This document shows positions 1-26,682 of a DNA stretch of 26,682 bases, piece by piece (position 1 is the stretch's first letter; each line of letters begins with the position of its first letter). The translations under genes were made by a program, and so were the position numbers. The stretch covers positions 1 through 26,682 of the forward strand of contig MDYQ01000308.1 in assembly GCA_003024175.1 (NCBI GenBank), written 5' to 3'. The notes beneath the pieces are model-generated. The model ran no database searches. It saw only the letters and a program-made list of their open reading frames with translations, and was not told where the DNA came from. This DNA comes from Planoprotostelium fungivorum. Lineage: Eukaryota; Evosea; Variosea; Cavosteliida; Cavosteliaceae.

Positions 1-278
1 ATTTTCTCATCGAAGAAGATTTGGTGGATCGAGAGTATCACTTGATTGTGGTCATCTTGACTCACACCGATCTATACATCAGTGACCATCACACACGAAC
101 GACACAAGATCACTGAAACAGGAAGGACTTCAACGTAGAGTTCAACTCCCTCATAGGATTTGTGTGCATCAGTACAGAAGATTTTTCTCCTCATATACAG
201 GAATATCCCACGCGATAAACTGTCAACGGAACGAATGTCCAACGTCGAAGTTGAATGCATGATGTATTGTGATTGTTA

Positions 279-3200: not shown

Positions 3201-4120
3201 ATCCCAAGAAGAAGAAGCTGGGCTGAGAGGTGTCGATCGTGTCGGTCAGTGGAATGCGGAAACAGTTGTTGTTGGGGCAGCTCATGGCTGCAGCCACCTC
3301 TTTGATGTCGTAGGGAAACACGTAAGAAGGGGGAGTGTATCTCAGCAGTCTATAACCGTTGGCGATGACGCTCTGACCCGCGTAGATGGTGGATGCGAAC
3401 AGCTCGGTGATCGTGATGTCGAAATCGGTGGTGGTGGGATTCAGAGTGGCTTGACCGAACCAGATGGACAGACCCACACCGGCCTCACAGATGGAGATAA
3501 TTTGTGACACGTTGTGTCGAGTGTCGTTCCGCCAAGAGTCGAGGGAAGCGTTTCCGTTTCCACAGAGGATGTTGATGGCTGGTAGATCGATCAGATGATG
3601 AAGCATTGAAAAGAGTCGACTCACGGGTGGTGGGCTGCATGCCTGTTATGGAAGTCAGATAGATGCCCGTCTTGGTGGCTGATGATTTAGAAATCAAGAG
3701 GCCCCCTTCCGGAATAGAATCAACATGGCGCGTCACTGCATCAGATCAGCCATCCATTTCAACATCTCTTCATGTGCAATCTCACGTTGGGAACCAGTCG
3801 GGCCAGCATTGCAAACACCTAAGCCCGAACATACTTGAGAGGCGGACACTTGTTGCTGGATCAGAGGAAGGACTTGACTACCAAAGGAAGAGATGAAGCG
3901 GTAACACTACCAGACATTAGAAGAAAGAAGAATTCCAGGTTGAGGTCACCGATGTGTGAACGGCAGTGGGATAATTGAGAGCTTTATCGCAGGCTCGGGT
4001 GAGGTTGACCTCGGATCCAGAGGCCAACGTGATACACGAGAAGCATTGTCTATCGAGCTCTGTGTCCAGAGCGGGCGACAGCACGAAGAGTAGCACCAAG
4101 GTGAGTAGTTCAGCTCTCAT
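279..4120 (-). CDS. Secreted/type I membrane protein with EGF-like module and Thr/Pro-rich stalk (multi-exon)
   Basis: Start chosen at the Met (4118-4120) opening a signal peptide (MRAELLTLVLLFVLSPALDT). The body is read through many short exons with GT-AG introns; those I could phase are 3127-3170, 1533-1570, 1410-1462, 963-1002 and 452-499. The extracellular part is rich in N-x-S/T sites and has no fold I recognise. An EGF-like module with six cysteines (ACNDVMPCHRGSCQ, then GRCVCDAG and PTCDLPF) lies at about 1300-1409. A beta-rich segment follows, then a Ser/Thr/Pro/Asp stalk (510-900) with KPTTSD/KPTTGD repeats. The end is a single hydrophobic helix (GIVIGTIAGVALIVVAAVFG) and a short basic/tyrosine tail stopping at 279. 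The architecture suggests a surface adhesion or recognition protein; ComC/tiger-like amoebozoan proteins are a possible comparison, unproven. Exon joins between 1780 and 4000 are only partly resolved. Confidence 0.75.
676..728. repeat. 18-bp coding minisatellite (stalk repeats)
   Basis: Three near-identical 18-bp units (consensus TTGGCTTATCACCCGTAG) encode the DKPTTS/DKPTTG repeats of the Thr/Pro-rich stalk on the minus strand. Repeats of this kind commonly vary in number between alleles. Confidence 0.8.
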
Positions 4121-4673
4121 CCTGCCGCTGTCGAAGAGGAGTGGTGGATGCGTCGTCTGTTTCTCAAATCTCCTCTGCACGAGAATACTGCAGGTCCGGA
4201 GAGGCGCTTCGGAAGATGACAATACTGCGGGCTTTGACTTAATACAGCGATTCCTTCGAGACCAGACGGAACTGACAACAGATCTGAAGGAAAAAGGGAA
4301 CCTTTAGTATTCGTTCTCCCTCTCGTTCTCTGCTTCTTCTTGAACTTCAATTTTTATCCTTTGATAAAACCTTTCGCCCCTCGGCCGATGCGAAAAGTCA
4401 AAGGAAACTTGGAATCGGATGAGATTTCTGTGAAGAGGAACGCCCTATGGTACGGCGGGCTTGTATAGCATAACGAGGAAGATCGACAAGTGAGAGCAGC
4501 CCTTCTATGGAACACGAGGCATCGCATGAACTTGGGAGGGGGACAGAGACTTCGAGGTCGAGCTGTTTCCGAACTCTAATTGAGGGGAGAACAGCAGACT
4601 GAGATGCTCGGGTCTATCCTGCCCTGCGATGAGCCTCTGTGTAACCATTACGTTTCGGTCGTAACTGACTATC
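4121..4673. other. Intergenic region upstream of the EGF-module gene
   Basis: This stretch holds the presumed promoter and 5' leader of the minus-strand membrane-protein gene and the 3' flank of the small candidate gene. Open frames exist on both strands, but none shows a recognisable domain or a convincing splice structure. I see no RNA gene or repeat here. Confidence 0.5.
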
Positions 4674-5021
4674 TTACAGGCACAGGACACCATCTTGGGG
4701 TGAGACACTTGGAATGTAAAAGAAAGAATGAATGTAGGAAGGAGACTACTTCTTGTCACTCTTCTCTCCAATTTGTTTACATGATTGAGTTCAGCATCGA
4801 ATATCTTGCTACCGGTCCAACTCCAAGATGTAGCCGAGCTCAATCAAAGTCTCTTCGCACCAAGAGACATTGAGAATGACGCTGTTCTGGACCGTAGGAT
4901 CCACCCTCTTGTCGCTCAACAGCATTCTCACTATGTCTGTTTATCATGCCTGAGACGGTTCACATGATGAATGGTCTTGAGTCGATGATGATTTACCGTC
5001 TCTACCGTAGCAAACAGCCAT
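4674..5021 (-). CDS. Candidate small three-exon gene, 55 codons, function unknown
   Basis: A consistent model can be built on the minus strand: exon 1 5006-5021 (MAVCY plus 1 nt), exon 2 4813-4930, exon 3 4674-4707, stop TAA. Exon lengths 16+118+34 sum to 168, divisible by three, and both introns have GT-AG ends. The second intron ends in a long pyrimidine-rich tract (CTTTCTTTTACATTCCAAG), as a real 3' splice site would. The peptide contains DPTVQNSVILNVSW and EETLIELGYILELD, which look like ordinary globular protein, but I recognise no family. It lies just downstream of clathrin on the same strand. It could instead be a fragment of a longer gene, or chance. Confidence 0.33.
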
Positions 5022-5086
5022 TGTTTTTAAGCGGCAGTCCAATTTCTACGCATCACCGAACATCCATCTCATCATGTGCACTGATA

Positions 5087-5092
5087 TTTATT
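5087..5092 (-). terminator. Poly(A) signal AATAAA of clathrin heavy chain
   Basis: AATAAA on the minus strand begins only a few bases after the stop codon at 5097-5099, implying a very short 3' UTR. Confidence 0.6.
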
Positions 5093-5096
5093 TCTA

Positions 5097-8000
5097 TTAA
5101 AATCCGAAGCCAGAGTTGTTTCCTCCAAAACCTTGTTGTTGTTGGAATCCACCATATCCTCCTTGCGCTCCGTACCCTGCGTTCCCGCCAAAACCACCGG
5201 CGGCGGCGTTACCGTACTGATCCATGCCGTAGCCTTGGTTGCCACCAAATCCACCACCGACTCCGTAGCCTGAAGCGTCGGGCTGGCCTCCCTGAGGGTA
5301 GTACCCGATCTGCAGAGTGTTCCCGAGGTACATTTCGTTCGGTTGGTTGAAGTTCTGAACCTCGTTGGCCTTCTTCTCTTCTTCCTTCTTGTTCTTGTCG
5401 AAATCCTTGTACAGAGTGTCCACCTTTGTGATGTACTCTCTGAACACCTGTTCCGCCGTCAGGACCGTCTCGTTGTAGATGAAGCATCTCACCTGGATCA
5501 AGAAGGGGAAGGCAAAGTCGATGATCTGGTTCTTCCAGGCCAACTCGAGTGCGACGTCAGGTCTGATGATGTCGTAGCAAGAGTAGAGCGTCGCGGCGAA
5601 GGCCTCCTTCAGTTGCTGCTGAACGAAAAACTCGAGCAGTCCCTCGGCGACGTCTTGTCTCTTCGATTCTGCGGCAGTTTGGATGGCGTCCTTGTACAAC
5701 TTGTCTTGCTTCGACAGCTCGACACTCTGCTGGAACTTGGCGTTGGACTTGTAGATGTAAGCGGCGATCCTTCTAAACTCCAACAGATCATTCTTCTCCA
5801 ACTGCACGGGGGTCAGAATATAAAGTTTTCCATCTTCGGTCACCTGCTGAGCGAGGGCGAGCTTGTCAAAGTTGTCGTGGGCGTCGACGCTGGAGCGAAG
5901 GGCATCAAAGTCCTCCTCTTCGATGAGGAGCTCGTTCAGAGCGTCGTTGACGGCTTGGACGTTCTTCTCCTGCACGGCCAAGAGGTAAGGCTTGATCATG
6001 GGGAGATGGTTCATCTTGCGAACGAGTCCGACGACGCGGCTGTGGTCGACCCTGGGAGGGGTGAGTATTGGGAACGTTACGTACGGTACGTACCTGGGAA
6101 TGAGGGCGGTGAGCAGGTCGTTGATGAGATTGGGTTGCTCGGACAGATAGTACTGGATCGATCTGTAGCAAACGTCCGTGTTGTGTACCTATCACCGTCA
6201 ATCTACAACACTGTAGATGGTCCCACCTTCGGCACGACTTCCTTGAACAAGGCGTGGTCGAAGGACTCGGCGGGGTGGTTCAGCATGACAAGCGCGGCCT
6301 CGTCAAACTCATCATAGTGAGTGTGAAGGAACACGAGCTCGGGCCACTGAGAGTTAAGTTGGGCGTAGTTGGCCACCTTGGGGATGTTGATCCTCTTGTA
6401 CTGGGCCTTGATAAAGTCCATCAGCTTCTCCTCCTTGTACTTGCTGTACAGACCGGCCAGCTCGGTAAAGAGACCGGCGTGTGCACCCTCGGTCGTGATG
6501 CCTTGCTCCAACAGCTGGATCAGCTCCGAAAAGTGTCCTCTGTTCTCGTAGACACGGAGTACCTGACAAGGTCAGACGGTGATAGAAGGAGACTCTCACC
6601 TCTTCGAGCTCGTCCGGAACGACGACCAAGTGAAGTCCAGCGATCTGAGCCAATCTGAATTCCTTGGCGTCGACGCAGGCGAGATTGACTTCCTTCCAGG
6701 TTCGGCTCGAGTTGGCCTTGTTGGCGGAATCGACAGCCTCCTGATATTCTCCCAGCCTGACCAAAGCTGAAGCGAGCTTGGCGTAATTGGAGATGTTGTT
6801 GAAGAGAATCTTTGCGGCCTCGTACAAGCCTTCGGCGTAACATCTGTCTCCGGTGTCCAACACGTTGGCGGTACAGCCAGGGGTGGAGATGAACTCCTCC
6901 AATTCGGACAATTTGTCGGTCTTGCAGTAAGCGTAGGCTAACTCGGACTCGATCTGAGGCTCCTTGATCTTCTTCGTGGCCATTTCCAGGTAACGAACGA
7001 GGTCCTCAAAATTTCCTTGGCTGTTGGCGGCGTAGATGACCTGGTTTCGATCCTCAGCTCCGGCATCTTTTTTTCACCTCACCTCGTGGTAAAACTCGTG
7101 ATCGTTGGCCTTGAGGAAGGAATTGACGGCCTGCTTGACTTGGTTGTCGTCCAGCTGAGCCTTACCCAACTTGGTGTACACTTCGGGGGTGGCAATGCGG
7201 TCGGCAAACTCGGTCGCGCGGTTCAGATCGTGAACGTGATTGATGAGAACGTCAATGGCGTCAGTCTGCAGCTTGAACTTGTTGTAGACGGTGAAGGCTT
7301 CCTCGTACAGCTCGGCCTGAATGGCGATGGAGGCAATATCGGGCCCGTCGTACTTGTCCAGTCTCTTGATGTAGTCCATCACCTTTGTCGTGTCTGCCTT
7401 GATGGCGGTCAGAATGAGAAGGTTCTGCAGGTCCTTGTTCTCGGAGAATTCGGTGTTGCGAGAGTCGAGGACGATCTACAACGCATCAGACGAGAGATTG
7501 TACGCGCGGGAATACCTTCTGGAGCAGCTCGATGAGCTCGTTGGGCAGCTTGGCCACCATGAAGGCACGGACGGTGGAGCTGACTTCGTCTGGGTTCTTT
7601 GTCTCGGGCAGAGCAGTCTGAGCGACTTGATCTACAACTTGACGCTTGAACTCGTTCTGGTCGTTGAGTACCTTGGCCCACAGCTCTGGGTCCTGACGGG
7701 TGATCAAGTATCTGTCACGGTGTGAGTCGACGCGTTGTAGACGGATGGTTCACCTGGCCTGGTGCTTGAAGAGATTGTTCTTGTTCGTGACGGCCAAGAT
7801 CTCGTCGTCACACATGCCTCTCTTGTAGGCAACAAAGGCGAGGTAGGGATCTCTCTTCTCGCAGTACTTTCCGATGACGCGGGAGTCGTAGTACGGGTTG
7901 TCATTCAAAAACTGCTCGGGACTCTTGTTGCTGTCGATGTTGATCTTGGCGAGGGCGTTGTGAAGCTCTGGCTCTTGGCTGCCCTCGGCAACTCTCGACT

Positions 8001-10804
8001 CCAACCACGGGTGGATAATCTTCATCTTGTTTCTCTTCTCCACGACCTCGACGAGGGCGTCGGTGGGGCAGAGAGATCGCACGGACATCAACAGGTTCTT
8101 GATGTAGTCTTCGTTGCAGCCCACGTCGATGAGAGTGCCGACCACGGTGGGGGTGTTGACGGGGTTGATCTTCTGGACGTAGGCCTCGATGTATCTCGAC
8201 ATGTTGTTCTTGTACAGAAACTTTGTCATGTCGTCGACGAATCCGTGGAGGTCGCAGACGATGATGAAGGGGAGCTGATCGGCCAATTTGGCCTCCTTGA
8301 GGAAATCGCGGATCTTGGCCGGGTCGTACGACTTGGACTCCCTGACCATTCTCTCGACTTCTCTGAATTGTCCGGTCTTGGCGGCAGCCTCGATGTACTT
8401 GTTGTGCACGACGGGGTCCTGCGACGTGTTGACTTGAGAGCCCAGGTAGAAGAAGAGACCTTCGTAGCTCTTGAACGTCTCGAACAACTCGACGACTTTG
8501 GTGGGCGTCAACTGCTCCGAGTATTTCGAGCAGACTTGGACGACGATCTGAAGGTTCTGACGGATGTTGAGGCGGAGGAGGTTCTTCAGGACCTCGAGCG
8601 AATCTTCCACCGAGAGGCGAGAGAAATAACCGACGAGGAAGTCGGGCTGGAAGGCTTGGGTGTTGGTCAAGACCCTCTTGACGTCATTGATGTCGGTGTA
8701 GTGGTCGAGGGCGCGCTGCATGAGGCCTGCCTTCTCGCAGAGAGTTCCGATTCTGGCCTTGTCATAGTGGGTGAACATGTTGTTGGCCAGAATGGCGTCA
8801 GCGACGGCGGGGGCAGAGATGAGATTCATCTCGAGCAACTTGGTCTGCAGAGCTGCGTCTTGGGGACGGTTCTCTTTCAAGACTTCCAAGAGGAGAGAAG
8901 TCGTCTGCTGGATCATTCCCTTTCTCATGAACGTGTCGACGACGGCATTGACGTCGATGAGAGAACCTCCTTGTGCGTTGACCAAATTGGCGGCAAAGCT
9001 GGCGGCGGCGTCTGGGTTGACTTGTACGAGATTGTTGAGAAGCTGCTTCCAGTCGGGGTTGAACGAGACCTTCTGGCAGTACGGCACGATCTTGTCGTAT
9101 TGTCCGGTCTCGGCGAAGAGCATGACGACCTTGGGATGAGTACCGGCCCGGTAGTACACCGTGAGTGCCATCTTGGCATCGGCCTGTCTGACCATGTCTC
9201 CCAACTCCTCGGAACATCCGAGCTTGTCCTCCGACAACCACTTCTCCAGCAGCTCTTTCCTTCCCTGGACCAAGACGGGGCGGGCGAGCTCTACGGTCTC
9301 GGCGGCGTTCAATTTGCCCTTCTCGAGCAAAACACCAAAGTACTGCAAGATGGGTGCAGGTTGGCCGGGCTGCTGAGGCAGCTGCTGGAACATCTGGATG
9401 GTTTTTGGTGTTCTCAGCACACCCTGAGGTGACTCGGCAGCGACCTTGGCGGCTTCCTTGATCTGTCCCGATTGGAAGAGGCGGTTGAACTGGTTCTGGA
9501 ACAAATCTTCCGCTCCGGGCAAGTTGTTGCGCGAGGCCAATTTGATGGCGAGCTCGTAATTGTTCAAGTTGTTGCAGATGTAAGGAACGAGGTTGGCCTC
9601 GTCAATGGTCAGGAGCAAGACTCTTCCCTTCTTGTCGACTCCCAAGATTCCCCCCGTGGCCGTGTGTGCGGCAGTGACAAAGATGGTGTCGGAGGAGATA
9701 CGGTTGCGGTAGATGAGGGTGCCGGTCTCGAGATCAAAGAGGTGGACGTAGCCAAACTTTGTGACGAGGTAGATGATGTTGTACTTCGTGGACACTTGCA
9801 TGGCAACGGGGAAGTCTTGAGCGGCCTCAGGGGGGAAATAGACATCGACGGCTCTCTTCTGGAAGGCGGGGCTGTCGTCGGGCTTGGCCACTTCGATGAT
9901 GTAGAGCTGGAGGTGGATCAATCGTTTGCGACGCCGGGTGCCGGCTCACCTTGGCTTCCGTTCCGGTCTTCTTGGCAAAAGTGAAGATGGTGGAAGGCTT
10001 GTTTCCTCCATCTACAACGAAGCTGCCGAAGGCGGAGGCGTGACCCTCGATGGCTTGAGACACCTTCTTCTCGGTGGAGTAGAGTTGCATGGCACCGGCG
10101 ATGCGACCGTCTCGCTGAGCGATACCTACGACACACAACCACTTTTGGTCATCGTCGGCCTTGTAGTTGATGATCTGGCAATCAGCGAGGGACTGATGGC
10201 GATCGAAGACTTTGACTGGCTCTGATTGTCCCTCAAGGGCCCAGTGGTAGGCGGCCGTGGCGGTGACGAGAGCGATGGTGCTGGTGGAGATCCATCGCCA
10301 GTAGACAACGGCATCGGTCATGGTGGTTGCTTTCAATTTGGCCTTCTGGTCCAAGTTGAAGATCTGCAGCATATTTCCGGCTGGAGGGAATGAATAAAAT
10401 GAAATAAAAGATGGACGATTTACCCTTGAGGGCGATGATGTTTTGGGTGGGGTGCTGGATGGCACTGTCGGCCGTGATGGGTCTGCGAACGACGTTGCCG
10501 GGGTTCTGCATGTCGATGATGGCAATCTGTGACTTCTGCTCTGGGGTAGCTGCCACCTCTCTCACGACGATGTATCGGTCGGACTCCATGGTCAAAAAAG
10601 CGAACCCTATGGCTGCAGGGTTGATACCCAGAGCGGGCAGCTGTTGACGATTCAGATATCTGATACAATGATATAATTGGTTATGACGTTGTAGGTTTAG
10701 GAAGACAAGATAGAGTCGTGAGAGAGAAGAAGAGGAGAGGGAAGAGAAGAATGAGGAAGGAAGTTCACCTGAAGAACCTCCTGAAAACGTATGGGGAGCG
10801 CCAT
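5097..10804 (-). CDS. CLTC: Clathrin heavy chain, complete, 12 exons, 1721 codons
   Basis: Clathrin heavy chain forms the triskelion legs of coated vesicles at the plasma membrane and trans-Golgi. The start is fixed by the conserved N-terminus ([12 protein letters not shown] joined to [13 protein letters not shown]). Exons: 10769-10804, 10424-10640, 9950-10380, 7754-9906, 7516-7711, 7083-7475, 6600-7040, 6227-6562, 6094-6188, 5844-6051, 5493-5801, 5097-5447. They sum to 5166 nt with matching phases. The N-terminal beta-propeller (about residues 1-360; [12 protein letters not shown]), the seven heavy-chain repeats and the hub ([19 protein letters not shown]) all align with animal clathrin, which is slightly shorter at 1675 residues. 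The extra length is mainly a C-terminal Gly/Tyr/Phe/Gln/Asn-rich tail ending [11 protein letters not shown]. The 5' part (exons 1-3) lies in the inverted repeat; the rest is single copy here. Confidence 0.97.
6201..6218. repeat. Perfect hairpin inside clathrin intron 8
   Basis: ATCTACA, loop ACAC, TGTAGAT: a 7-bp perfect stem filling the middle of the 38-nt intron 6189-6226. It contains one of the recurrent TCTACAAC motifs. Confidence 0.7.
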
Positions 10805-11233
10805 GCTTTAGATATCAAAATATATGTTACTCTCTGTGTCAAGTAGTGAGTCACAGCCAATCTGACCTCGACGAAATCGAATCGACGCAACGTCATATCC
10901 TCTTAACGAGAGTCAAAGTCATCCTCCTCACCTATATAGTAATCCACACGTAAAAGTTTAGTGGACCTCCTTCTGATGTTCGTGGAAGGGGCTTGTTCTC
11001 TGGTTGGCGCTGAAGTGCTTCACCCGAGAGCCTACGCGATTGTCGACATTCTTTCGTCGAGGCGAAATTCGAACAACCGATGGTCGCTCACGCCTGCCCT
11101 CCGTCGACATTTATGAGACAGTTGAGCAGAGTCCGCGCCTGTGCTTCTGACGTGGTACCTTGGTCCGAGAAAAGTCCACAAGAACGTAGACACAAAGTGT
11201 GAGACACAGAGAGGGAAGGAGAAGAGAGTAGAC
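10805..11233. promoter_or_regulatory. Divergent promoter region between clathrin and RBM39
   Basis: This 429-bp interval lies between the clathrin start (minus) and the RBM39 start (plus), so it must hold both promoters and leaders. I see no convincing TATA box or known operator; AT-rich runs occur just upstream of clathrin (10815-10850). It is repeated identically at 25359-25787. Confidence 0.6.
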
Positions 11234-13439
11234 ATGGACGGGTTCGATATAGAAGCCTTATTAGAGGCGCGAATGAAGGTAAGAAGATCGGTGATTTTCT
11301 TGATGATGATGATTTCCCTAAGAGCCGAACAGAAGAGGCTCGTTATTGACACGATATTCACCTTCTAGTGTCAATTTTGTGAGGCGCCGATTCGAAATCA
11401 TGATAGTTGATTCAAAGTACAAATGACTGATAGAATTTAACAGGGACAAGATGTGAGCGAATTGGTAGTAGCGGCGCCAGCACCCAACCAACCTTCCACA
11501 GGAAACTTAGCACCACCGGCTGCGGAGGTGGAGGAGAAATCATCAGAAAAGAATGGAAGGGAGGAACACAAAGAAGAGTCGGACAGAAGAAAGTGAGCCT
11601 CTAAACGTCTTCAATATCTATTTCCCATTGTTTGATACAAGTGCTGATGTTTTTAACAGGAGACACCGCTCTGATTCCCCAGGTAGAGAGAGCAGGTCTT
11701 CGCGCCACAGGTAAGCCCTTTTTTTTGCATTGCCACCGAGTATCATTTCTGATTGACTCCCAGACATGACGATAGAGATAGAGATCGCTCTGACCGTGAC
11801 AGAAACCGCTCCGATAGAGACAGGGACCGCTCTGGAGACAGAGATCATTCTAGAGACAGAGATGATAGAAGGTGATATCACTTCCATTTTCCATCATCAC
11901 CTTCTCACACACAAACAGAGACAGGAGAGACCGAGACAGAGATAGGCACGATCGAGACAGGGATCGTTCGGACAGAAGAGATCGAGACAGGGACAGAGAC
12001 AGATCGGACAGAGATCGTCGCGACCGCGATCGAGACGATCGAAGGTGAACATCATCACATCATCCGATCTGCATCTCACATCTCATTCAGGAGGGACATG
12101 TCCCCAGAATCCGAGAGAAAAGACAGAGAGAAGAGGGCGAGAGACAGAGACAGAGAAGACCAGAGGCGTAAGGAAGCCGCCATGACCCCACAGGAGAGAG
12201 AGGCCATGGAATTGGACCGTGATGCACGTACCATCTTTGCCATCAACTTGCCCACACGTGCCGATGAAGATGACATCATCAAACACTTTTCAAAGGCAGG
12301 AGACGTCCGTGACGTCAGACTCATCACCGATCGAAACTCTCGCCGCTCGAAGGGGTGAGCTTCAGCGTTGTAGACGGCCGAACTGACTCGTTGTAGATTC
12401 GCTTACGTCGAATTCTTCGACCAGACCAGCGTTCCCGCCGGACTCAAGATGAGCAACAGCATCATGATGGGCCACGCCATTCAAGTCCAACAGACCTTTG
12501 TTGAGAAGTCTAGAATGCAGACCGTGTCTGCCGTCGTCCAGCCCACTCGTATCTACGTGGGAGCTCTCCACTTGGACATCACAGAAGACGATCTCAAGAA
12601 TGTCTTTGCCCCATTTGGTGACATCGAATTCGTCAATCTACACGTCGAGCCCGACACTGGAAAATCCAAGGGTTTCGCCTTCATCCAGTGAGTGACTCTA
12701 AATATCCATCTACAACCCGCCAATTCTGACCTCCTTCAGGTTCAGAAAGCCAGAAGATGCAAAGAGAGCGATGAACACGATGAACGGGTACGAGATTGCG
12801 GGCAGGACAATCAAAGTGGGTCTGGTGCAGGAGACGCCGAGGACAACCCACTCTGAGCCGGTACACAACCCGGGCGGCCGTGCCCTGTCACACGCAGCCG
12901 GGCCGGGAACCTCTTTCCACTCTTCGAACGACCGTCTGGACGATGAAGGTGAGAGGGTGGGGGTGGAGGGATCTGACTCGTTGTAGAGGATGGAATTCAG
13001 CTGAACGCCCACTCGAGAGCTTCGCTGATGGCGAAATTGCAGAGGGGAGGCTCGAACGTGCTGGAAGCACCACAGACGGTGTCTTATTCTGGCCCCTGTG
13101 TCCTGCTGAAGAACATGTTCGATCCCAGCGAGTGAGTTTTATTCTATTTTATTCTCGTCCCAATTCCGTCTGACTCGTTGTAGAGAAACAGAACCCAATT
13201 GGGACGAAGAGGTGAAGCAGGACGTGAAGGAAGAGTGCTCGAGATTCGGCAGCATCATCCACATTCACGTAGACAGAGAGAGCAAGGGCTTTGTCTATAT
13301 CAAGTTTGGTTCCACACCCGCAGCTGCAAACGCCATCAAGGCACTCGACGGCAGGTGGTTCAGCAAGAGGCAGATCCAAGCCAACTACTTCAACGAGAGA
13401 AGGTACCACGAGCTCTTCAAAGACGCCGTCACCTTTTAG
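11234..13439 (+). CDS. RBM39: RBM39/CAPER-like SR splicing factor, 10 exons, 547 codons
   Basis: This family couples 3' splice-site recognition (binding ULMs of U2AF65/SF3B1) to transcription in the nucleus. Exons: 11234-11278, 11444-11592, 11660-11710, 11764-11871, 11919-12044, 12091-12354, 12397-12687, 12740-12948, 12987-13131, 13184-13439; total 1644 nt, phases consistent. The N-terminus MDGFDIEALLEA matches the family start. Residues about 50-190 form an Arg/Asp/Ser-rich RS-like domain. RRM1 is at about 205-285 (TIFAINLP, SKGFAYVEF), RRM2 at about 298-375 (RIYVGAL, SKGFAFIQF) and a C-terminal UHM-type RRM at about 455-545 (LLKNMFDPSE, NWDEEV, GRWFSKRQI). The linker NVLEAPQTV is typical. 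Four introns (6-9) carry the GTTGTAG/TCTACAAC motif. An identical copy lies at 23153-25358. Confidence 0.94.
12383..12396 (+). other. Shared 14-nt 3' intron end, RBM39 intron 6
   Basis: CTGACTCGTTGTAG ends intron 12355-12396. The same 14 nt end introns 8 and 9 of the same gene. CTGAC resembles a branch site 10 nt before the final G. A second GTTGTAGA sits earlier in this 42-nt intron. Confidence 0.75.
12973..12986 (+). other. Shared 14-nt 3' intron end, RBM39 intron 8
   Basis: CTGACTCGTTGTAG ends intron 12949-12986 (38 nt), identical to the ends of introns 6 and 9. Confidence 0.75.
13170..13183 (+). other. Shared 14-nt 3' intron end, RBM39 intron 9
   Basis: CTGACTCGTTGTAG ends intron 13132-13183 (52 nt), identical to the ends of introns 6 and 8. 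Confidence 0.75.
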
Positions 13440-13452
13440 ACGTGACCTGCGA

Positions 13453-13458
13453 AATAAA
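13453..13458 (+). terminator. Poly(A) signal AATAAA of RBM39 (left copy)
   Basis: AATAAA begins 14 bases after the stop codon. RBM39 and the nucleotidyltransferase converge with only 122 bp between their stops. Confidence 0.6.
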
Positions 13459-13561
13459 AGATTCAAATCATGTGCTTCATGAAGACATTCTATATCTAAC
13501 GAAACAATGTGGCGAGTCGATTTTATCTACACAATCTACATAGAGGACAGTGACGTTGAGA

Positions 13562-14589
13562 TCAGCTGTCGCCGTTCATGCTGAGGAGAGTATCGTGCAC
13601 GTGGGCCTCCATTTCGTCCATAGACATGACTCCCAATGCATCACCGTGCTCCTCTTTGAGATGTTTCATGAGATCTCCCAGCTTCTTGCCGTTCAGACCA
13701 GTCATCTTTTGTATCACGTGCCCGTTGAACTTCTGGCTGAACTCCTCTCTTCTATTCGCCTCTCTCTCTATGGCGTTCCACTCTTCTCTCTTTCCAAAGA
13801 AATCGAGAGCCTCTTCGAGGACGGACTCCGTCTGAAACATGATGTCAGCGATCTGGGTTCTAAAGACGATGAAGTTAACTCACTGGAGGTCGAGTGTCCA
13901 CGTAGTTATCGAGCCACTTGAAGAAGCTCTGGACCATGTCTCTCTTACGCCTCCTCTTCTTCTCTCTCGCCGTCAGCTGCTTGAGTGCATGCGCAGTGAA
14001 GAACTTGCTGGTGGACATCCACCCGAATCCCTCCTCTACAGTGGCGAAACCGAGGGTCCATCTCTGATGATCCAACCCCATGAAGTCGCAGTAGAGCTTT
14101 GGATCTGCAGACAGACGTATGTCTGTGACGAAGCCAGGGTAGTCCCTTCTAACATGAACACCATCGGTGCTGAGAGATATGCCCAGACGCTTCGATACCA
14201 TGCCGAGGAGGTGACCTACGTATCCGAAAGACAGCATGAAGAGCTGAAAAGAGATCAGATGTCGATCGCGAGGGTTTCATCTTCACCTGCCAATCGAAGA
14301 AGGGTTCCTCTACTGTTATGAGATCTATCTGATGTCCTTTGTATTCGAAAGAGGTGAGGTAGGTGTTGACGTTGACCTCCTTGCTTCCTATCGTGGTGGG
14401 ATCGAAGTTGCAGTTGGGATGTCTTACGACCAATATGTCTACGTCGCCGTGACTCTCCTTTCCTGGTGCGGGAGCAGGTATGGCGCATCGCACAAAGTGT
14501 GGGGCCAAAAGGGCCAACAGCTCAGCACCTATCTCCTTGAATCGCTGGGGAGTCAATCTGACCGAGTTCTGTATGGCGTTACCACCCAT
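13562..14589 (-). CDS. Polymerase-beta-fold nucleotidyltransferase, 3 exons, 310 codons (left copy)
   Basis: Exons 14287-14589, 13884-14243 and 13562-13831 sum to 933 nt with consistent phases and GT-AG introns of 43 and 52 nt. The N-terminal third has the signature of the nucleotidyltransferase superfamily: HGDVDILVV, with D49 and D51 as the paired metal-binding carboxylates, and HQIDLITV, giving a third acidic residue D89. Such enzymes transfer an NMP from an NTP to RNA, protein or small molecules. The C-terminal region (FNGHVIQKMTGLNGKKLGDL) resembles the helical tail of CCA-adding/poly(A)-type enzymes (LTG...K.LG pattern), but I cannot assign a substrate. A basic stretch (REKKRRRKRD) could bind nucleic acid. 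Convergent with RBM39. An identical copy lies at 22003-23030. Confidence 0.82.
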
Positions 14590-14939
14590 GTTGTTCGTGT
14601 GTCTTTGTTTCTAATTGAGGAGGGTAGCATTCTCTCTGGTGGTTCGGTGAAAGGGATCAGCGTTTCGTTTTCCGGAATGGAAGCTCTGTAGATGGAGGCT
14701 TTAAATTGGATTTTTAGTTGGGATAATTTCGGCCGATGTGTGAAAGGTTGCAGAGATCATGTCTCCACAAATCTTTGAGTGTCGGTAGTATGAATGTTGT
14801 CATACATCTGAAGAGGACGATGCATCTGCCGATCAGATGATCGATACTCTTCCTGAAGTGCTGCACTTCGCGAACACCAACACCGATCGTGATCCGACAC
14901 GATGATTCTGTTTAGAATACAGTTGTTTATCAAAAATGT
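14590..14939. other. Intergenic, 3' flank of Cys-rich gene and promoter of nucleotidyltransferase
   Basis: A 350-bp stretch between two minus-strand genes. The side next to the Cys-rich stop is its 3' UTR and contains the palindrome at 14855-14869. The side next to 14589 must hold the nucleotidyltransferase promoter. No open frame of interest. Identical copy at 21653-22002. Confidence 0.5.
14855..14869. repeat. Short palindrome in the 3' region of the Cys-rich gene
   Basis: GAAGTGC T GCACTTC: a 7-bp perfect inverted repeat around one base, about 70 bases downstream of the stop. It could fold in the 3' UTR or act as a dimeric protein site. Mirrored at 21723-21737. Confidence 0.6.
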
Positions 14940-15275
14940 TTACTTTCCGCAGCTGACGCATCCGCAGGCATAGCCTCCCTGTCCATCGGAGTAGCAGACG
15001 GGTCCACAGTAGTGGAGCTGCTGGCATCTGGTCTGTCTCTTCTCTTCGACTTCCCTCTTCTCGGCGAAGGTGGCAGAGCATGTGTTCTGGATGTCAGCGT
15101 TCCACAGGCAGTGTCTGCTGTCAGGGTTGCCACAGTCGGCGGGGCAGGTGATGGAAGTGACTTCACCGGAGGTGAAGGTCTCGACGACGTTGTAAGGAGG
15201 CTGAGGGAAGTCCTGAGTCAGGTCGGCGTGGACTGCGAGGCAGAAGACGATGGCAAAGAGGATGGCAACCTTCAT
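14940..15275 (-). CDS. Small secreted 10-cysteine protein, copy 1 (111 aa)
   Basis: A single open frame with a clear signal peptide (MKVAILFAIVFCLAVHA, cleavage predicted before D18) gives a mature chain of 94 residues. Ten cysteines are in the mature part: four in the first half (TCP, ADC, RHC, NTC) and six in the second (TRC, HYC, PVC, ACGC, SCG). A charged stretch EKREVEEKRQ separates the halves. I recognise no family; it may be a disulfide-rich extracellular or defence-like protein, but that is only inference. Compared with the inverted copy at 21317, residues 1-64 differ at seven positions while the remaining C-terminal part is identical at DNA level. No intron is needed. Confidence 0.75.
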   Translation of the reverse strand: MKVAILFAIVFCLAVHADLTQDFPQPPYNVVETFTSGEVTSITCPADCGNPDSRHCLWNADIQNTCSATFAEKREVEEKRQTRCQQLHYCGPVCYSDGQGGYACGCVSCGK

Positions 15276-15324
15276 GTTTCTCTCTTGTGAGCTGTGTTGA
15301 AAATGAGGTTTGGAAGTGGTCAAC
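15276..15324 (-). promoter_or_regulatory. Conserved leader/proximal promoter block of Cys-rich copy 1
   Basis: These 49 bases match 21268-21316 of the inverted copy with four substitutions and no indel, including the leader end CTCACAAGAGAGAAAC. The match weakens upstream, although AGCTACCGC recurs in both. Copy 1 has CATATAG further upstream (15358-15365, minus), whereas copy 2 has TATAAG closer to the gene. Confidence 0.55.
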
Positions 15325-16161
15325 CTTCTGACAAAGCGTCACGCACCCCGCGGACACGCTATATGCCGTGATGACTCAGCGGTAGCTTACCGAAGACGAA
15401 AAGTGAGCGTCTGACACGATATCCCCTATGGAGCTACCTGCCCGACTCAAGACCCAGCCAAGGGAGAAAAAAAGGGATCTTTTTATGTGGGAAGTAGAAG
15501 TGATGAATAAAGGAAGCTGTTCAAATAACATCTCCACGACAAAACGGCCCCGGTTGTGTGGTGGTGGCCCCTATTGGCCTTCACGCCCGCGGCAGCAGGT
15601 CTGAGAGCAAGACATTTTACAGGAACGACGCGTGGAGAATAAGAGACAGACCGGACTACTGGTTGCTGAGCGCTGGAGCGATGGTCTCTTATGAATGATC
15701 ATCGGATGTGGGTGCAATCCATAGAGGTGCATTCCACAAACAACTGCGTGGAAAGATTTTGATCTCCACCTTACAAACCACCAATCATTGAAAATCGTGA
15801 TTGATGATCAGGGTGGAAGACACGTCCACAATTGGTCGCGTGAAGATATGACGAAAGCTGAACGGCTGTCACTCTCCTTGTGTTGAAAGAGACACAGCAT
15901 CTCATTTTTCATCACACATCTTCGTGAACGTCAAGAATATATCCTGTACGATTGTCTCTCGCCAAGAGAAGCTATGGCGTGCAACACTTGACGTCGATCG
16001 AACGTTTCATCACCGCGATGCCTGTTGTGTTCCACTACAACTTGTAATTGGGGAAATTGAGCTGTCCCGGAAAAACAAACGAGACCTGCACAATCAGGAT
16101 ATCGAATGCATCGTCACACATTACTCACGAATCACGGTGATTACACATCCTACAACGTGAA
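15325..16161. other. Intergenic region between Cys-rich copy 1 and PEX6
   Basis: Upstream sequence of two divergent genes. I see no convincing coding region, RNA gene or tandem repeat. It is single copy in this window. CCTACAACG (16149-16157), a variant of the recurrent intron motif, lies a few bases before the PEX6 start. Confidence 0.5.
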
Positions 16162-20708
<4,547 letters not shown>

Positions 20709-21267
20709 AGTGTCTCGATGATGCGTTTATGATGACGATGATCACTCTCATCTCGAACCACCACACACACCGCCGTCTCATGTTCCAAGCGGTCATCACT
20801 TACTGATGCACTCACCCTTCGTTCATCGGATGATGAAGCCAAGTGGCTATATTAGGAAGTAGTTTCAAGTGACCTATGGTAAAGAGATGAACAGTTGTCG
20901 TCAACCCACGTCTTCTCTGTTTCGCCATAGATGCAGAAGGATGACGCCGATCTTTGTCACACCCTTAAGCCACCCCCTGCCCCAACCGCGACGGCCGTTC
21001 GATCATCCACTCACCTCAGTAATCCTTAACCTGATTAGGGCCATCTTCTTAGGAGCTAAATTCTATTATTTCGATGGAGATCTGCAGATCTCGCGCCGGT
21101 CGTTTCTATTTCCGCGTTCGAGAGGCTCCTTTTTTTCGATCCAGGCGAGTTCCACGACAGATGAACGAACTCCACGCCTGTGGCCCACACTCTTGCTCCG
21201 TAAGAAGGCCCGCGCACGCTAGCTACCGCGTTGAGCTCGGTAACATACCAACCGCTCCGGTATAAGG
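20709..21267. other. Intergenic region between PEX6 and Cys-rich copy 2
   Basis: This holds the PEX6 3' flank and the distal promoter of Cys-rich copy 2. A TATA-like TATAAG is at 21261-21266, about 50 bases before the ATG. AGCTACCGC (about 21222-21230) recurs upstream of copy 1 as well. I see no gene here. Confidence 0.5.
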
Positions 21268-21316
21268 GTATACCACTTCCAAACATCATTTTCAAGACAG
21301 CTCACAAGAGAGAAAC
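21268..21316 (+). promoter_or_regulatory. Leader/proximal promoter block of Cys-rich copy 2
   Basis: Counterpart of 15276-15324 with four substitutions; TATAAG sits immediately upstream. The block lies outside the perfectly identical arm, in the diverged but still homologous zone. Confidence 0.55.
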
Positions 21317-21652
21317 ATGAAGGTTGCCATCCTCTTTGCCATCGTCTTCTGCCTCGCAGTCCACGCCGACCTCACTGAGGACTTCCCTCAGCCTCCTTAC
21401 AACTTTGTAGAGACCTTCACCTCTGGCACCATCACCTCTCTCACCTGCCCTGATGACTGTGGCAACCCAGACTCTAAGCACTGTCTGTGGAACGCTGACA
21501 TCCAAAACACATGCTCTGCCACCTTCGCCGAGAAGAGGGAAGTCGAAGAGAAGAGACAGACCAGATGCCAGCAGCTCCACTACTGTGGACCCGTCTGCTA
21601 CTCCGATGGACAGGGAGGCTATGCCTGCGGATGCGTCAGCTGCGGAAAGTAA
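21317..21652 (+). CDS. Small secreted 10-cysteine protein, copy 2 (111 aa)
   Basis: Inverted paralog of the gene at 14940-15275, with the same length, signal peptide and ten cysteines. Coding positions 1-189 differ from copy 1 at about 25 sites (seven amino acid changes: E/Q, F/V, T/E, I/V, L/I, D/A, K/R), without indels. From 21506 onward the two genes are identical. The uneven divergence shows that the 5' halves have separate, older histories, while the 3' halves share a very recent one. Function unknown. Confidence 0.75.
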   Translation: MKVAILFAIVFCLAVHADLTEDFPQPPYNFVETFTSGTITSLTCPDDCGNPDSKHCLWNADIQNTCSATFAEKREVEEKRQTRCQQLHYCGPVCYSDGQGGYACGCVSCGK

Positions 21653-22002
21653 ACATTTTTGATAAACAACTGTATTCTAAACAGAATCATCGTGTCGGAT
21701 CACGATCGGTGTTGGTGTTCGCGAAGTGCAGCACTTCAGGAAGAGTATCGATCATCTGATCGGCAGATGCATCGTCCTCTTCAGATGTATGACAACATTC
21801 ATACTACCGACACTCAAAGATTTGTGGAGACATGATCTCTGCAACCTTTCACACATCGGCCGAAATTATCCCAACTAAAAATCCAATTTAAAGCCTCCAT
21901 CTACAGAGCTTCCATTCCGGAAAACGAAACGCTGATCCCTTTCACCGAACCACCAGAGAGAATGCTACCCTCCTCAATTAGAAACAAAGACACACGAACA
22001 AC
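21653..22002. other. Intergenic, right-arm copy of 14590-14939
   Basis: Identical to the left-arm interval. It holds the Cys-rich 3' UTR with the GAAGTGC/GCACTTC palindrome (21723-21737) and the presumed promoter of the second nucleotidyltransferase. Confidence 0.5.
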
Positions 22003-23030
22003 ATGGGTGGTAACGCCATACAGAACTCGGTCAGATTGACTCCCCAGCGATTCAAGGAGATAGGTGCTGAGCTGTTGGCCCTTTTGGCCCCACACTTTGT
22101 GCGATGCGCCATACCTGCTCCCGCACCAGGAAAGGAGAGTCACGGCGACGTAGACATATTGGTCGTAAGACATCCCAACTGCAACTTCGATCCCACCACG
22201 ATAGGAAGCAAGGAGGTCAACGTCAACACCTACCTCACCTCTTTCGAATACAAAGGACATCAGATAGATCTCATAACAGTAGAGGAACCCTTCTTCGATT
22301 GGCAGGTGAAGATGAAACCCTCGCGATCGACATCTGATCTCTTTTCAGCTCTTCATGCTGTCTTTCGGATACGTAGGTCACCTCCTCGGCATGGTATCGA
22401 AGCGTCTGGGCATATCTCTCAGCACCGATGGTGTTCATGTTAGAAGGGACTACCCTGGCTTCGTCACAGACATACGTCTGTCTGCAGATCCAAAGCTCTA
22501 CTGCGACTTCATGGGGTTGGATCATCAGAGATGGACCCTCGGTTTCGCCACTGTAGAGGAGGGATTCGGGTGGATGTCCACCAGCAAGTTCTTCACTGCG
22601 CATGCACTCAAGCAGCTGACGGCGAGAGAGAAGAAGAGGAGGCGTAAGAGAGACATGGTCCAGAGCTTCTTCAAGTGGCTCGATAACTACGTGGACACTC
22701 GACCTCCAGTGAGTTAACTTCATCGTCTTTAGAACCCAGATCGCTGACATCATGTTTCAGACGGAGTCCGTCCTCGAAGAGGCTCTCGATTTCTTTGGAA
22801 AGAGAGAAGAGTGGAACGCCATAGAGAGAGAGGCGAATAGAAGAGAGGAGTTCAGCCAGAAGTTCAACGGGCACGTGATACAAAAGATGACTGGTCTGAA
22901 CGGCAAGAAGCTGGGAGATCTCATGAAACATCTCAAAGAGGAGCACGGTGATGCATTGGGAGTCATGTCTATGGACGAAATGGAGGCCCACGTGCACGAT
23001 ACTCTCCTCAGCATGAACGGCGACAGCTGA
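22003..23030 (+). CDS. Polymerase-beta-fold nucleotidyltransferase, right copy (310 codons)
   Basis: Exons 22003-22305, 22349-22708 and 22761-23030, identical to the left copy, with HGDVDILVV and HQIDLITV intact. Both copies are complete, so both could be expressed if the duplication is real; their promoters inside the arm are identical too. Confidence 0.8.
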
Positions 23031-23133
23031 TCTCAACGTCACTGTCCTCTATGTAGATTGTGTAGATAAAATCGACTCGCCACATTGTTTCGTTAGATAT
23101 AGAATGTCTTCATGAAGCACATGATTTGAATCT

Positions 23134-23139
23134 TTTATT
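23134..23139 (-). terminator. Poly(A) signal AATAAA of RBM39 (right copy)
   Basis: Mirror image of 13453-13458. Confidence 0.55.
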
Positions 23140-23152
23140 TCGCAGGTCACGT

Positions 23153-25358
23153 CTAAAAGGTGACGGCGTCTTTGAAGAGCTCGTGGTACCTTCTCTCGTT
23201 GAAGTAGTTGGCTTGGATCTGCCTCTTGCTGAACCACCTGCCGTCGAGTGCCTTGATGGCGTTTGCAGCTGCGGGTGTGGAACCAAACTTGATATAGACA
23301 AAGCCCTTGCTCTCTCTGTCTACGTGAATGTGGATGATGCTGCCGAATCTCGAGCACTCTTCCTTCACGTCCTGCTTCACCTCTTCGTCCCAATTGGGTT
23401 CTGTTTCTCTACAACGAGTCAGACGGAATTGGGACGAGAATAAAATAGAATAAAACTCACTCGCTGGGATCGAACATGTTCTTCAGCAGGACACAGGGGC
23501 CAGAATAAGACACCGTCTGTGGTGCTTCCAGCACGTTCGAGCCTCCCCTCTGCAATTTCGCCATCAGCGAAGCTCTCGAGTGGGCGTTCAGCTGAATTCC
23601 ATCCTCTACAACGAGTCAGATCCCTCCACCCCCACCCTCTCACCTTCATCGTCCAGACGGTCGTTCGAAGAGTGGAAAGAGGTTCCCGGCCCGGCTGCGT
23701 GTGACAGGGCACGGCCGCCCGGGTTGTGTACCGGCTCAGAGTGGGTTGTCCTCGGCGTCTCCTGCACCAGACCCACTTTGATTGTCCTGCCCGCAATCTC
23801 GTACCCGTTCATCGTGTTCATCGCTCTCTTTGCATCTTCTGGCTTTCTGAACCTGAAGGAGGTCAGAATTGGCGGGTTGTAGATGGATATTTAGAGTCAC
23901 TCACTGGATGAAGGCGAAACCCTTGGATTTTCCAGTGTCGGGCTCGACGTGTAGATTGACGAATTCGATGTCACCAAATGGGGCAAAGACATTCTTGAGA
24001 TCGTCTTCTGTGATGTCCAAGTGGAGAGCTCCCACGTAGATACGAGTGGGCTGGACGACGGCAGACACGGTCTGCATTCTAGACTTCTCAACAAAGGTCT
24101 GTTGGACTTGAATGGCGTGGCCCATCATGATGCTGTTGCTCATCTTGAGTCCGGCGGGAACGCTGGTCTGGTCGAAGAATTCGACGTAAGCGAATCTACA
24201 ACGAGTCAGTTCGGCCGTCTACAACGCTGAAGCTCACCCCTTCGAGCGGCGAGAGTTTCGATCGGTGATGAGTCTGACGTCACGGACGTCTCCTGCCTTT
24301 GAAAAGTGTTTGATGATGTCATCTTCATCGGCACGTGTGGGCAAGTTGATGGCAAAGATGGTACGTGCATCACGGTCCAATTCCATGGCCTCTCTCTCCT
24401 GTGGGGTCATGGCGGCTTCCTTACGCCTCTGGTCTTCTCTGTCTCTGTCTCTCGCCCTCTTCTCTCTGTCTTTTCTCTCGGATTCTGGGGACATGTCCCT
24501 CCTGAATGAGATGTGAGATGCAGATCGGATGATGTGATGATGTTCACCTTCGATCGTCTCGATCGCGGTCGCGACGATCTCTGTCCGATCTGTCTCTGTC
24601 CCTGTCTCGATCTCTTCTGTCCGAACGATCCCTGTCTCGATCGTGCCTATCTCTGTCTCGGTCTCTCCTGTCTCTGTTTGTGTGTGAGAAGGTGATGATG
24701 GAAAATGGAAGTGATATCACCTTCTATCATCTCTGTCTCTAGAATGATCTCTGTCTCCAGAGCGGTCCCTGTCTCTATCGGAGCGGTTTCTGTCACGGTC
24801 AGAGCGATCTCTATCTCTATCGTCATGTCTGGGAGTCAATCAGAAATGATACTCGGTGGCAATGCAAAAAAAAGGGCTTACCTGTGGCGCGAAGACCTGC
24901 TCTCTCTACCTGGGGAATCAGAGCGGTGTCTCCTGTTAAAAACATCAGCACTTGTATCAAACAATGGGAAATAGATATTGAAGACGTTTAGAGGCTCACT
25001 TTCTTCTGTCCGACTCTTCTTTGTGTTCCTCCCTTCCATTCTTTTCTGATGATTTCTCCTCCACCTCCGCAGCCGGTGGTGCTAAGTTTCCTGTGGAAGG
25101 TTGGTTGGGTGCTGGCGCCGCTACTACCAATTCGCTCACATCTTGTCCCTGTTAAATTCTATCAGTCATTTGTACTTTGAATCAACTATCATGATTTCGA
25201 ATCGGCGCCTCACAAAATTGACACTAGAAGGTGAATATCGTGTCAATAACGAGCCTCTTCTGTTCGGCTCTTAGGGAAATCATCATCATCAAGAAAATCA
25301 CCGATCTTCTTACCTTCATTCGCGCCTCTAATAAGGCTTCTATATCGAACCCGTCCAT
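23153..25358 (-). CDS. RBM39: RBM39/CAPER-like splicing factor, right copy (547 codons)
   Basis: Exact reverse-complement copy of 11234-13439, including all nine introns; exon coordinates follow from 36592 minus the left-arm values. All three RRMs and the RS-like region are intact and no disruption is present. The shared 14-nt intron ends are mirrored at 24196-24209, 23606-23619 and 23409-23422. Confidence 0.92.
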
Positions 25359-25787
25359 GTCTACTCTCTTCTCCTTCCCTCTCTGTGTCTCACACTTTGT
25401 GTCTACGTTCTTGTGGACTTTTCTCGGACCAAGGTACCACGTCAGAAGCACAGGCGCGGACTCTGCTCAACTGTCTCATAAATGTCGACGGAGGGCAGGC
25501 GTGAGCGACCATCGGTTGTTCGAATTTCGCCTCGACGAAAGAATGTCGACAATCGCGTAGGCTCTCGGGTGAAGCACTTCAGCGCCAACCAGAGAACAAG
25601 CCCCTTCCACGAACATCAGAAGGAGGTCCACTAAACTTTTACGTGTGGATTACTATATAGGTGAGGAGGATGACTTTGACTCTCGTTAAGAGGATATGAC
25701 GTTGCGTCGATTCGATTTCGTCGAGGTCAGATTGGCTGTGACTCACTACTTGACACAGAGAGTAACATATATTTTGATATCTAAAGC
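25359..25787. promoter_or_regulatory. Divergent promoter region, right copy
   Basis: Exact copy of 10805-11233 between the second RBM39 (minus) and the second clathrin start (plus). Confidence 0.55.
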
Positions 25788-26682
25788 ATGGCGCTCCCCA
25801 TACGTTTTCAGGAGGTTCTTCAGGTGAACTTCCTTCCTCATTCTTCTCTTCCCTCTCCTCTTCTTCTCTCTCACGACTCTATCTTGTCTTCCTAAACCTA
25901 CAACGTCATAACCAATTATATCATTGTATCAGATATCTGAATCGTCAACAGCTGCCCGCTCTGGGTATCAACCCTGCAGCCATAGGGTTCGCTTTTTTGA
26001 CCATGGAGTCCGACCGATACATCGTCGTGAGAGAGGTGGCAGCTACCCCAGAGCAGAAGTCACAGATTGCCATCATCGACATGCAGAACCCCGGCAACGT
26101 CGTTCGCAGACCCATCACGGCCGACAGTGCCATCCAGCACCCCACCCAAAACATCATCGCCCTCAAGGGTAAATCGTCCATCTTTTATTTCATTTTATTC
26201 ATTCCCTCCAGCCGGAAATATGCTGCAGATCTTCAACTTGGACCAGAAGGCCAAATTGAAAGCAACCACCATGACCGATGCCGTTGTCTACTGGCGATGG
26301 ATCTCCACCAGCACCATCGCTCTCGTCACCGCCACGGCCGCCTACCACTGGGCCCTTGAGGGACAATCAGAGCCAGTCAAAGTCTTCGATCGCCATCAGT
26401 CCCTCGCTGATTGCCAGATCATCAACTACAAGGCCGACGATGACCAAAAGTGGTTGTGTGTCGTAGGTATCGCTCAGCGAGACGGTCGCATCGCCGGTGC
26501 CATGCAACTCTACTCCACCGAGAAGAAGGTGTCTCAAGCCATCGAGGGTCACGCCTCCGCCTTCGGCAGCTTCGTTGTAGATGGAGGAAACAAGCCTTCC
26601 ACCATCTTCACTTTTGCCAAGAAGACCGGAACGGAAGCCAAGGTGAGCCGGCACCCGGCGTCGCAAACGATTGATCCACCTC
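25788..26682 (+). CDS. CLTC: Clathrin heavy chain, right copy, 5' part only (cut by window edge)
   Basis: Exons 25788-25823, 25952-26168 and 26212-26642 encode the first 228 codons (most of the N-terminal beta-propeller), identical to the left copy. The window ends inside intron 3 (26643 onward), three bases before where the copied acceptor would finish. Whether a complete second clathrin gene, a truncated one or an assembly edge follows cannot be seen. Confidence 0.85.

Follow-up and report, generated by a model that had tools for sequence, protein, structure and literature searches.

The contig MDYQ01000308.1 of Planoprotostelium fungivorum (C269 hereafter), analysed over its whole length of 26682 bp and called the window below, raises a simple question: does the large inverted repeat on both sides of its PEX6-like gene represent a newly duplicated piece of chromosome, or is it something that came about when one region was put together from two versions? 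The initial annotation had described mirror-image arms of at least 5177 bp without any difference, and both this statement and its coordinates proved correct. The conclusions reached are that: (i) the palindrome turns within two inverted paralogous genes, one of which is a mosaic; (ii) a recent duplication of a chromosome stretch is less likely as the source of the palindrome than either a pair of alternative arrangements of the region or an erroneous join. The elements on which this rests are the following.

9910..15086, + strand: left arm, 5177 bp, no difference from the right arm
14940..15275, - strand: R1, gene of an apparently secreted cysteine-rich protein (111 codons plus stop), mosaic, without Pfam match
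15087..15320, no strand assigned: diverged inner part of the inverted repeat, 88% alike to 21272-21505, with the switch at about 15082-15108
15321..21271, + strand: spacer with the PEX6-like AAA ATPase gene (gene at about 16160-20708, limits set by eye)
21317..21652, + strand: R2, inverted paralogue of R1, without Pfam match, whose relatives shift less markedly from one part to the other than those of R1
21506..26682, - strand: right arm, the left arm in reverse complement, extending to the last base of C269

When the window is compared with itself by BLAST, one inverted pair stands out, i.e., 9910-15320 against 26682-21272 (5411 bp, 27 mismatches, no gaps). All 27 mismatches are confined to 15087-15307: the outer part (9910-15086 against 26682-21506) is identical as reverse complement at 5177/5177 positions, as the arms of a true palindrome should be, and the inner 234 bp are about 88% alike. 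It should be kept in mind that this run of 5177 bp, like the run of 4523 bp described below, is exact by way of its delimitation. Three parts of the arm were searched against the whole assembly and both copies were recovered at 100%; chance similarity is thus ruled out as the source of 5177 identical bases. Searches of the assembly covering 9700-11400, 11390-13600 and 13592-15082 gave no third copy of the arm, except copies of the R genes and 52 bp at 85% on contig C143.

The two ends of the arms are of a different nature. The inner boundary (15087/21505) falls within the cysteine-rich gene, a point absent from the initial annotation. On the outer side, the right arm ends at position 26682, which is the last base of C269 and not a biological boundary. 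The contig stops inside the arm, which may thus be longer, and the right arm is not followed by a unique flank such as a true palindrome should have outside both arms.

R1 and R2 are identical at 350/377 positions across their common stretch of 377 bp. Relatives of this family are found on C288, C234, C310, C321, C130 and C147, with weaker matches on C454, C259 and C21, and in the aligned members the coding part is alike and the flanks are mostly unlike. The family as such is a dispersed one (C288:2814-3210, C288:10548-10924 and others), with unrelated flanks and with relations between members that are not the same in the 5' and the 3' part.

R1 is a mosaic of a C288-type 5' part and an R2-type 3' part. 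In the 5' part it matches the gene at the end of C288 at 188/193 positions and R2 at 169/193; in the 3' part it matches R2 at 144/145 positions and the C288 gene at 116/145. Expressed as differences, R1 departs from the C288 gene at 29/145 positions in the 3' part vs. 5/193 in the 5' part (Fisher p 1.5e-7), and from R2 at 1/145 vs. 24/193 (Fisher p 1.1e-5). The FastTree trees of the two parts conflict: in the 5' part R1 belongs to a clade with the genes C288 and C310b (support 1.0), in the 3' part it groups with R2. The exact run common to R2 and the C288 gene at the switch, as read from the alignment, is 26 bp. It is more likely that the left turn, near 15087, is the switched junction, and not the right one. 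The original neighbour of the clathrin-RBM39 side (side A hereafter) would then be the right end of the spacer.

Outside C269, both the spacer and side A meet other sequences. If short repeats and an 80 bp stretch terminating C288 are disregarded, the spacer occurs once in the assembly. Its left end is matched at 94% by the final 80 bases of C288 (11013 bp), which adjoin the R-type gene of that contig; in the alignment, 73/83 positions agree and 5 columns are gaps. The remainder of C288 matches the window at R genes only and not at the arm, and at E 1e-20 the assembly contains no other copy of its middle (4201-9899). Contig C75 takes up the sequence 318 bp past the last base of the right arm: C75:1-4523 is exactly the window from 9591 to 5069, ends 28 bases past the stop codon of clathrin and then diverges. 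Side A has thus two outer flanks and, within C269, two inner neighbours. The clathrin block itself is seen with two different flanks, which part at 5069 in the window and 4523 in C75.

Three other origins of the turn were rejected. A hairpin fold-back is not indicated, since the segment 14930-15330 folds no better than its shuffles (z -0.57). The repeat is a small protein-coding gene family and not a mobile element, no element ends having been seen, without a dedicated search. Finally, the repeats (TTAGGG)3 and (TTTAGGG)3, which would point to a telomeric end, are absent from either strand of the window, of C288 and of the pieces of C75, C143, C63, C228 and C321.

The reading tentatively preferred, at somewhat less than an even chance, is that recombination between the inverted paralogues produced alternative orientations of the PEX6-like gene, which the assembly folded into one contig. 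R1 and R2 flank the spacer; homologous recombination inside their coding sequence would invert it in some copies of the region, these being one haplotype, one homologue or a sub-population. In the standard arrangement, side A would lead via R2 to the right end of the spacer, whose left end would be connected with a C288-type flank via an R3-type gene. In the inverted arrangement, side A would lead to the left end of the spacer via the hybrid R1. An assembler that went into the spacer along one arrangement and came out along the other would print side A twice, inverted, as a false palindrome. The order predicted, which is also that observed, is an identical arm, a repeat diverged from the crossover inward, unrelated spacer ends and, on one side, a mosaic repeat. 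That both copies of side A are identical would then reflect a homogenised or homozygous region and not the age of a duplication. Both orientations would presumably be present in the organism and joined by the contig.

The turn within inverted paralogues, the mosaic R1, the flanks on C288 and C75 and the similar pattern on C168 and C143 (see below) all argue for inversion. The spacer is a single-copy segment between inverted homologous repeats, and a mosaic repeat lies at a junction, as in the known class of such inversions. Membership of this class is not proven, because the four junctions and both orientations are not all seen: three junctions at most are present, one of them resting on the 80 bp of C288.

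Several observations weigh against an inversion. The assembly yielded no fourth junction, in which an R3/R2 hybrid would connect the right end of the spacer with a C288-type flank. The link with C288 is short (80 bp at 94%) and could be a paralogue with its promoter. A search of the assembly gave no second, diverged copy of the PEX6 spacer, so that the two haplotypes are assumed. R2 is itself closer to the C288 gene in the 5' part (173/193) than in the 3' part (117/145), i.e., 20/193 vs. 28/145 differences (p 0.027), and its position in the 5' tree is weakly supported (0.78); R2 may thus be an older hybrid, which makes the choice of the left turn uncertain. The R1 base at 15087, which matches neither R2 nor the C288 gene, is common to the C234 gene. 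In the second palindrome described below, the switch lies beside the NmrA-like gene and not inside it, and the copy of its spacer end on C143 is only 82-95% alike, so that a haplotype switch within that spacer would be required.

Inversions of this kind are known in yeasts. On Saccharomyces chromosome XIV an inverted repeat of a gene family flips a region of 24 kb (flip/flop; PMC9731477), and the likeness is close: a gene-bearing segment lies between inverted paralogous family genes, where recombination gives two orientations. The Saccharomyces repeat, however, is of about 4 kb and near-identical, with both orientations documented in strains, whereas that of C269 is of about 0.38 kb at 93% and is seen in one contig. 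In Candida albicans, the account of CEN4 gives an inversion between inverted repeats on one homologue (PMC6591007); some of these repeats carry open reading frames, and the inversion goes together with segmental amplification and long homozygous tracts. Those events are backed by polymerase chain reaction and read depth, whereas C269 is known from assembled sequence alone.

A second palindrome was met on C168 through the sampling of contig points described below, and was then chosen for study because it matched. Both palindromes looked at (2/2, C269 and C168) turn at inverted paralogues; since C168 was selected for its likeness, this is not a rate. C168:1-29742 is an inverted copy of 103954-73988. 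The arms have 5 mismatches in the first 13781 bp, then a patch of about 90% (about 13781-14650), and are beyond it about 98.8% alike on average, being exact at 24400-28553. The last stretch, up to 29742, has 49 mismatches (about 96%), after which nothing is alike. An inverted pair of NmrA-like genes (29520-28639 and 74213-75094) lies inside this 96% stretch, and the arms turn exact 85 bp beyond the NmrA-like stop codon. One arm reaches the contig end. On C143, the left end of the C168 spacer is accompanied by part of the NmrA-like gene, and the 4.7 kb read beyond this part gave no match to either C168 arm. For C269 as for C168, a contig outside the palindrome thus joins a spacer end to different sequence.

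The weight of any palindrome depends on how often this assembly holds a sequence twice. From the 471 contigs, 20 were chosen by number and a single piece of 220 bp was taken from the very start of each, and 19 internal pieces were taken from 20 contigs (one was too short). The counts of second copies are lower bounds, the best 40 of 42, 190 and 76 candidates having been scored. At least 7/20 ends (C5, C120, C166, C189, C258, C304 and C373) have one other place at 99-100%; five belong to repeat families (C212, C327, C350, C419, C442), one has a copy at 91% (C74) and seven have none among the candidates scored. The surroundings of the C5, C120, C166, C189, C258 and C304 ends are each identical over the 635-800 bases compared. 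Among the internal points, at least 2/19 have a perfect second copy, i.e., C214 on C446 (2501/2501 bases) and C168 on C168 itself, inverted, and at least two more have a copy at 95-97%. Ends and internal points do not differ clearly (Fisher p 0.13), and second copies are common in the assembly, as false duplication would have it. Six sampled pairs (C5/C120 at both ends, four other ends and C214/C446) show 0 differences in 6,990 bp.

The identity between copies in the assembly is patchy: C143 and C75 have 4 mismatches in 3228 bp, and other stretches are about 5-18% different. Two further observations concern this redundancy. C5:1-40734 and C120:1-39553 appear, as judged from their identical ends, to overlap head to head over about 40 kb, the contigs being unmerged. 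The window at 1-4236, C143:58445-62652 and C63:79583-81582 all resemble one another, with an identity that jumps along their length between about 100% and some 90%, as if conversion tracts alternated with old divergence.

Could the palindrome be simply an artefact? In that case, one of the two turns would have been made by a chimeric molecule or by an erroneous join via the R genes, and the only arrangement would have the spacer between a C288-type flank and side A, with neither inversion nor duplication. This is somewhat less likely than the inversion; it fits the stop of C269 within an arm, the perfect second copy of at least 7/20 sampled ends, the ends of C5 and C120 that lie some 40 kb inside each other, and the lack of differences in the 6,990 bp compared around sampled second copies, which is what re-used sequence would give. 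The exact run of 26 bp at the switch is short for a k-mer or overlap join and argues against a plain one. The base of R1 at 15087, being neither that of R2 nor that of the C288 gene, may speak in the same direction; how far either point goes depends on the R3-type allele actually involved. Substitutions, indels and a patch of about 90% in the C168 arms mean that re-used reads are no explanation there; chimeric molecules may have arisen by amplification. Published false duplications are similar in that two versions of one region were entered as duplicated, partly on the same scaffold (PMC9516828). The word "inverted" is absent from the text of that paper, and turns at paralogous genes are thus probably not described in it.

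A true inverted duplication in one chromosome appears rather unlikely. Fold-back repair, template switching or break-induced replication would have led from an R3-type gene into the inverted R2, side A would have been copied to the other side of PEX6 in place of the C288-type flank, and the right arm would continue into C75. This explanation predicts the mosaic R1 equally well, and a less altered R2 too; it needs no fourth junction, and none was found. C75 begins 318 bp past the stop of the right arm, a second palindrome is present on C168, and fold-back and break-induced replication between inverted repeats have already been proposed in another system. On the other side, the right arm is without a unique flank, both palindromes run to a contig end, and exact second copies at contig ends reduce the weight of palindromes in this assembly. 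The initial annotation had put forward a recent duplication or homogenisation, or a wrong assembly, through template switching, break-induced replication and gene conversion. The mosaic R1 supports a homology-driven switch; it has not been established that one chromosome carries the duplication, and thereby a second RBM39 gene and a second nucleotidyltransferase gene, in view of the missing unique flank, the context of C75, the exact second copies of at least 7/20 ends and the fold-back anatomy of C168. It is improbable that the genome holds many large palindromes, each begun by a switch at a pair of inverted paralogues and kept near-identical by conversion from arm to arm.

The palindromes of Adineta vaga have reportedly been overturned by a chromosome-level assembly. 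For those of the 2013 assembly, Nowell et al. report that none was found in A. ricciae (PMC5916493), and a later A. vaga assembly is described as having just one (PMC7749112); both weigh against a true duplication here. Jaron et al. count the A. vaga palindromes and warn that erroneous scaffolding can create artificial ones (PMC7953838). The palindromes of Botryllus passed depth checks (PMC12448946), which counters that caution. The 2013 assembly of A. vaga resembles the present one in that a single contig or scaffold carries homologous copies in opposite orientation, and collinearity is broken at many points (PMC5916493, PMC7953838, PMC7749112). It differs in that the A. vaga arms are homologues found by gene collinearity, whereas here the identity of the arms is 100% in C269 and for the most part about 99% or higher in C168.

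The genes of side A are the following.

5097..10804, - strand: clathrin heavy chain gene (ends from reading frames and start codon, introns unmapped), with its 5' part within the arm
11234..13439, + strand: RBM39-like RRM gene (limits set by eye), complete in both arms, with an RRM_1 match in one exon
13562..14589, - strand: gene labelled nucleotidyltransferase in the initial annotation (3' limit set by eye), complete in both arms, family unconfirmed

The arms were said to hold three genes and part of clathrin. They contain two complete genes (that of the RRM protein and that at 13562..14589), the 3' part of a cysteine-rich gene and only the 5' part of clathrin. The clathrin product matches the clathrin heavy chains of PDB. 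For the RRM gene, the part tested has a Pfam match to RRM_1, and the name RBM39 itself is that of the initial annotation. The gene at 13562..14589 has no Pfam match. The second AAA domain of the spacer protein scores up to 395 bits against VCP/CDC48-type chains and 317 bits against PEX6 chains. Since the alignments with PEX6 chains span nearly the whole of this query, the name is kept as "PEX6-like" although the former chains score higher.

Independently of the palindrome, the 8-mer CGTTGTAG occurs 21 times over 2631-26573 of the window (e.g., at 12389, 12979 and 13176), on both strands and with the copies of both arms counted, vs. about 0.8 expected. Several of these sites, as seen by eye, are apparently at the 3' ends of short introns, three of them within the RBM39-like gene and in the form CTGACTCGTTGTAG.

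These results suggest that a palindrome can arise when two arrangements of one region meet in one contig, which calls for caution in counting duplicated genes. If, on the other hand, many true palindromes exist, fast-evolving gene families would be recurrent turning points, and hybrid genes like R1 would result as well. Should the inversion be real, a family of secreted proteins would be remodelled by recombination within its coding sequence, giving hybrid proteins and, at the same time, a flipped PEX6-like gene.

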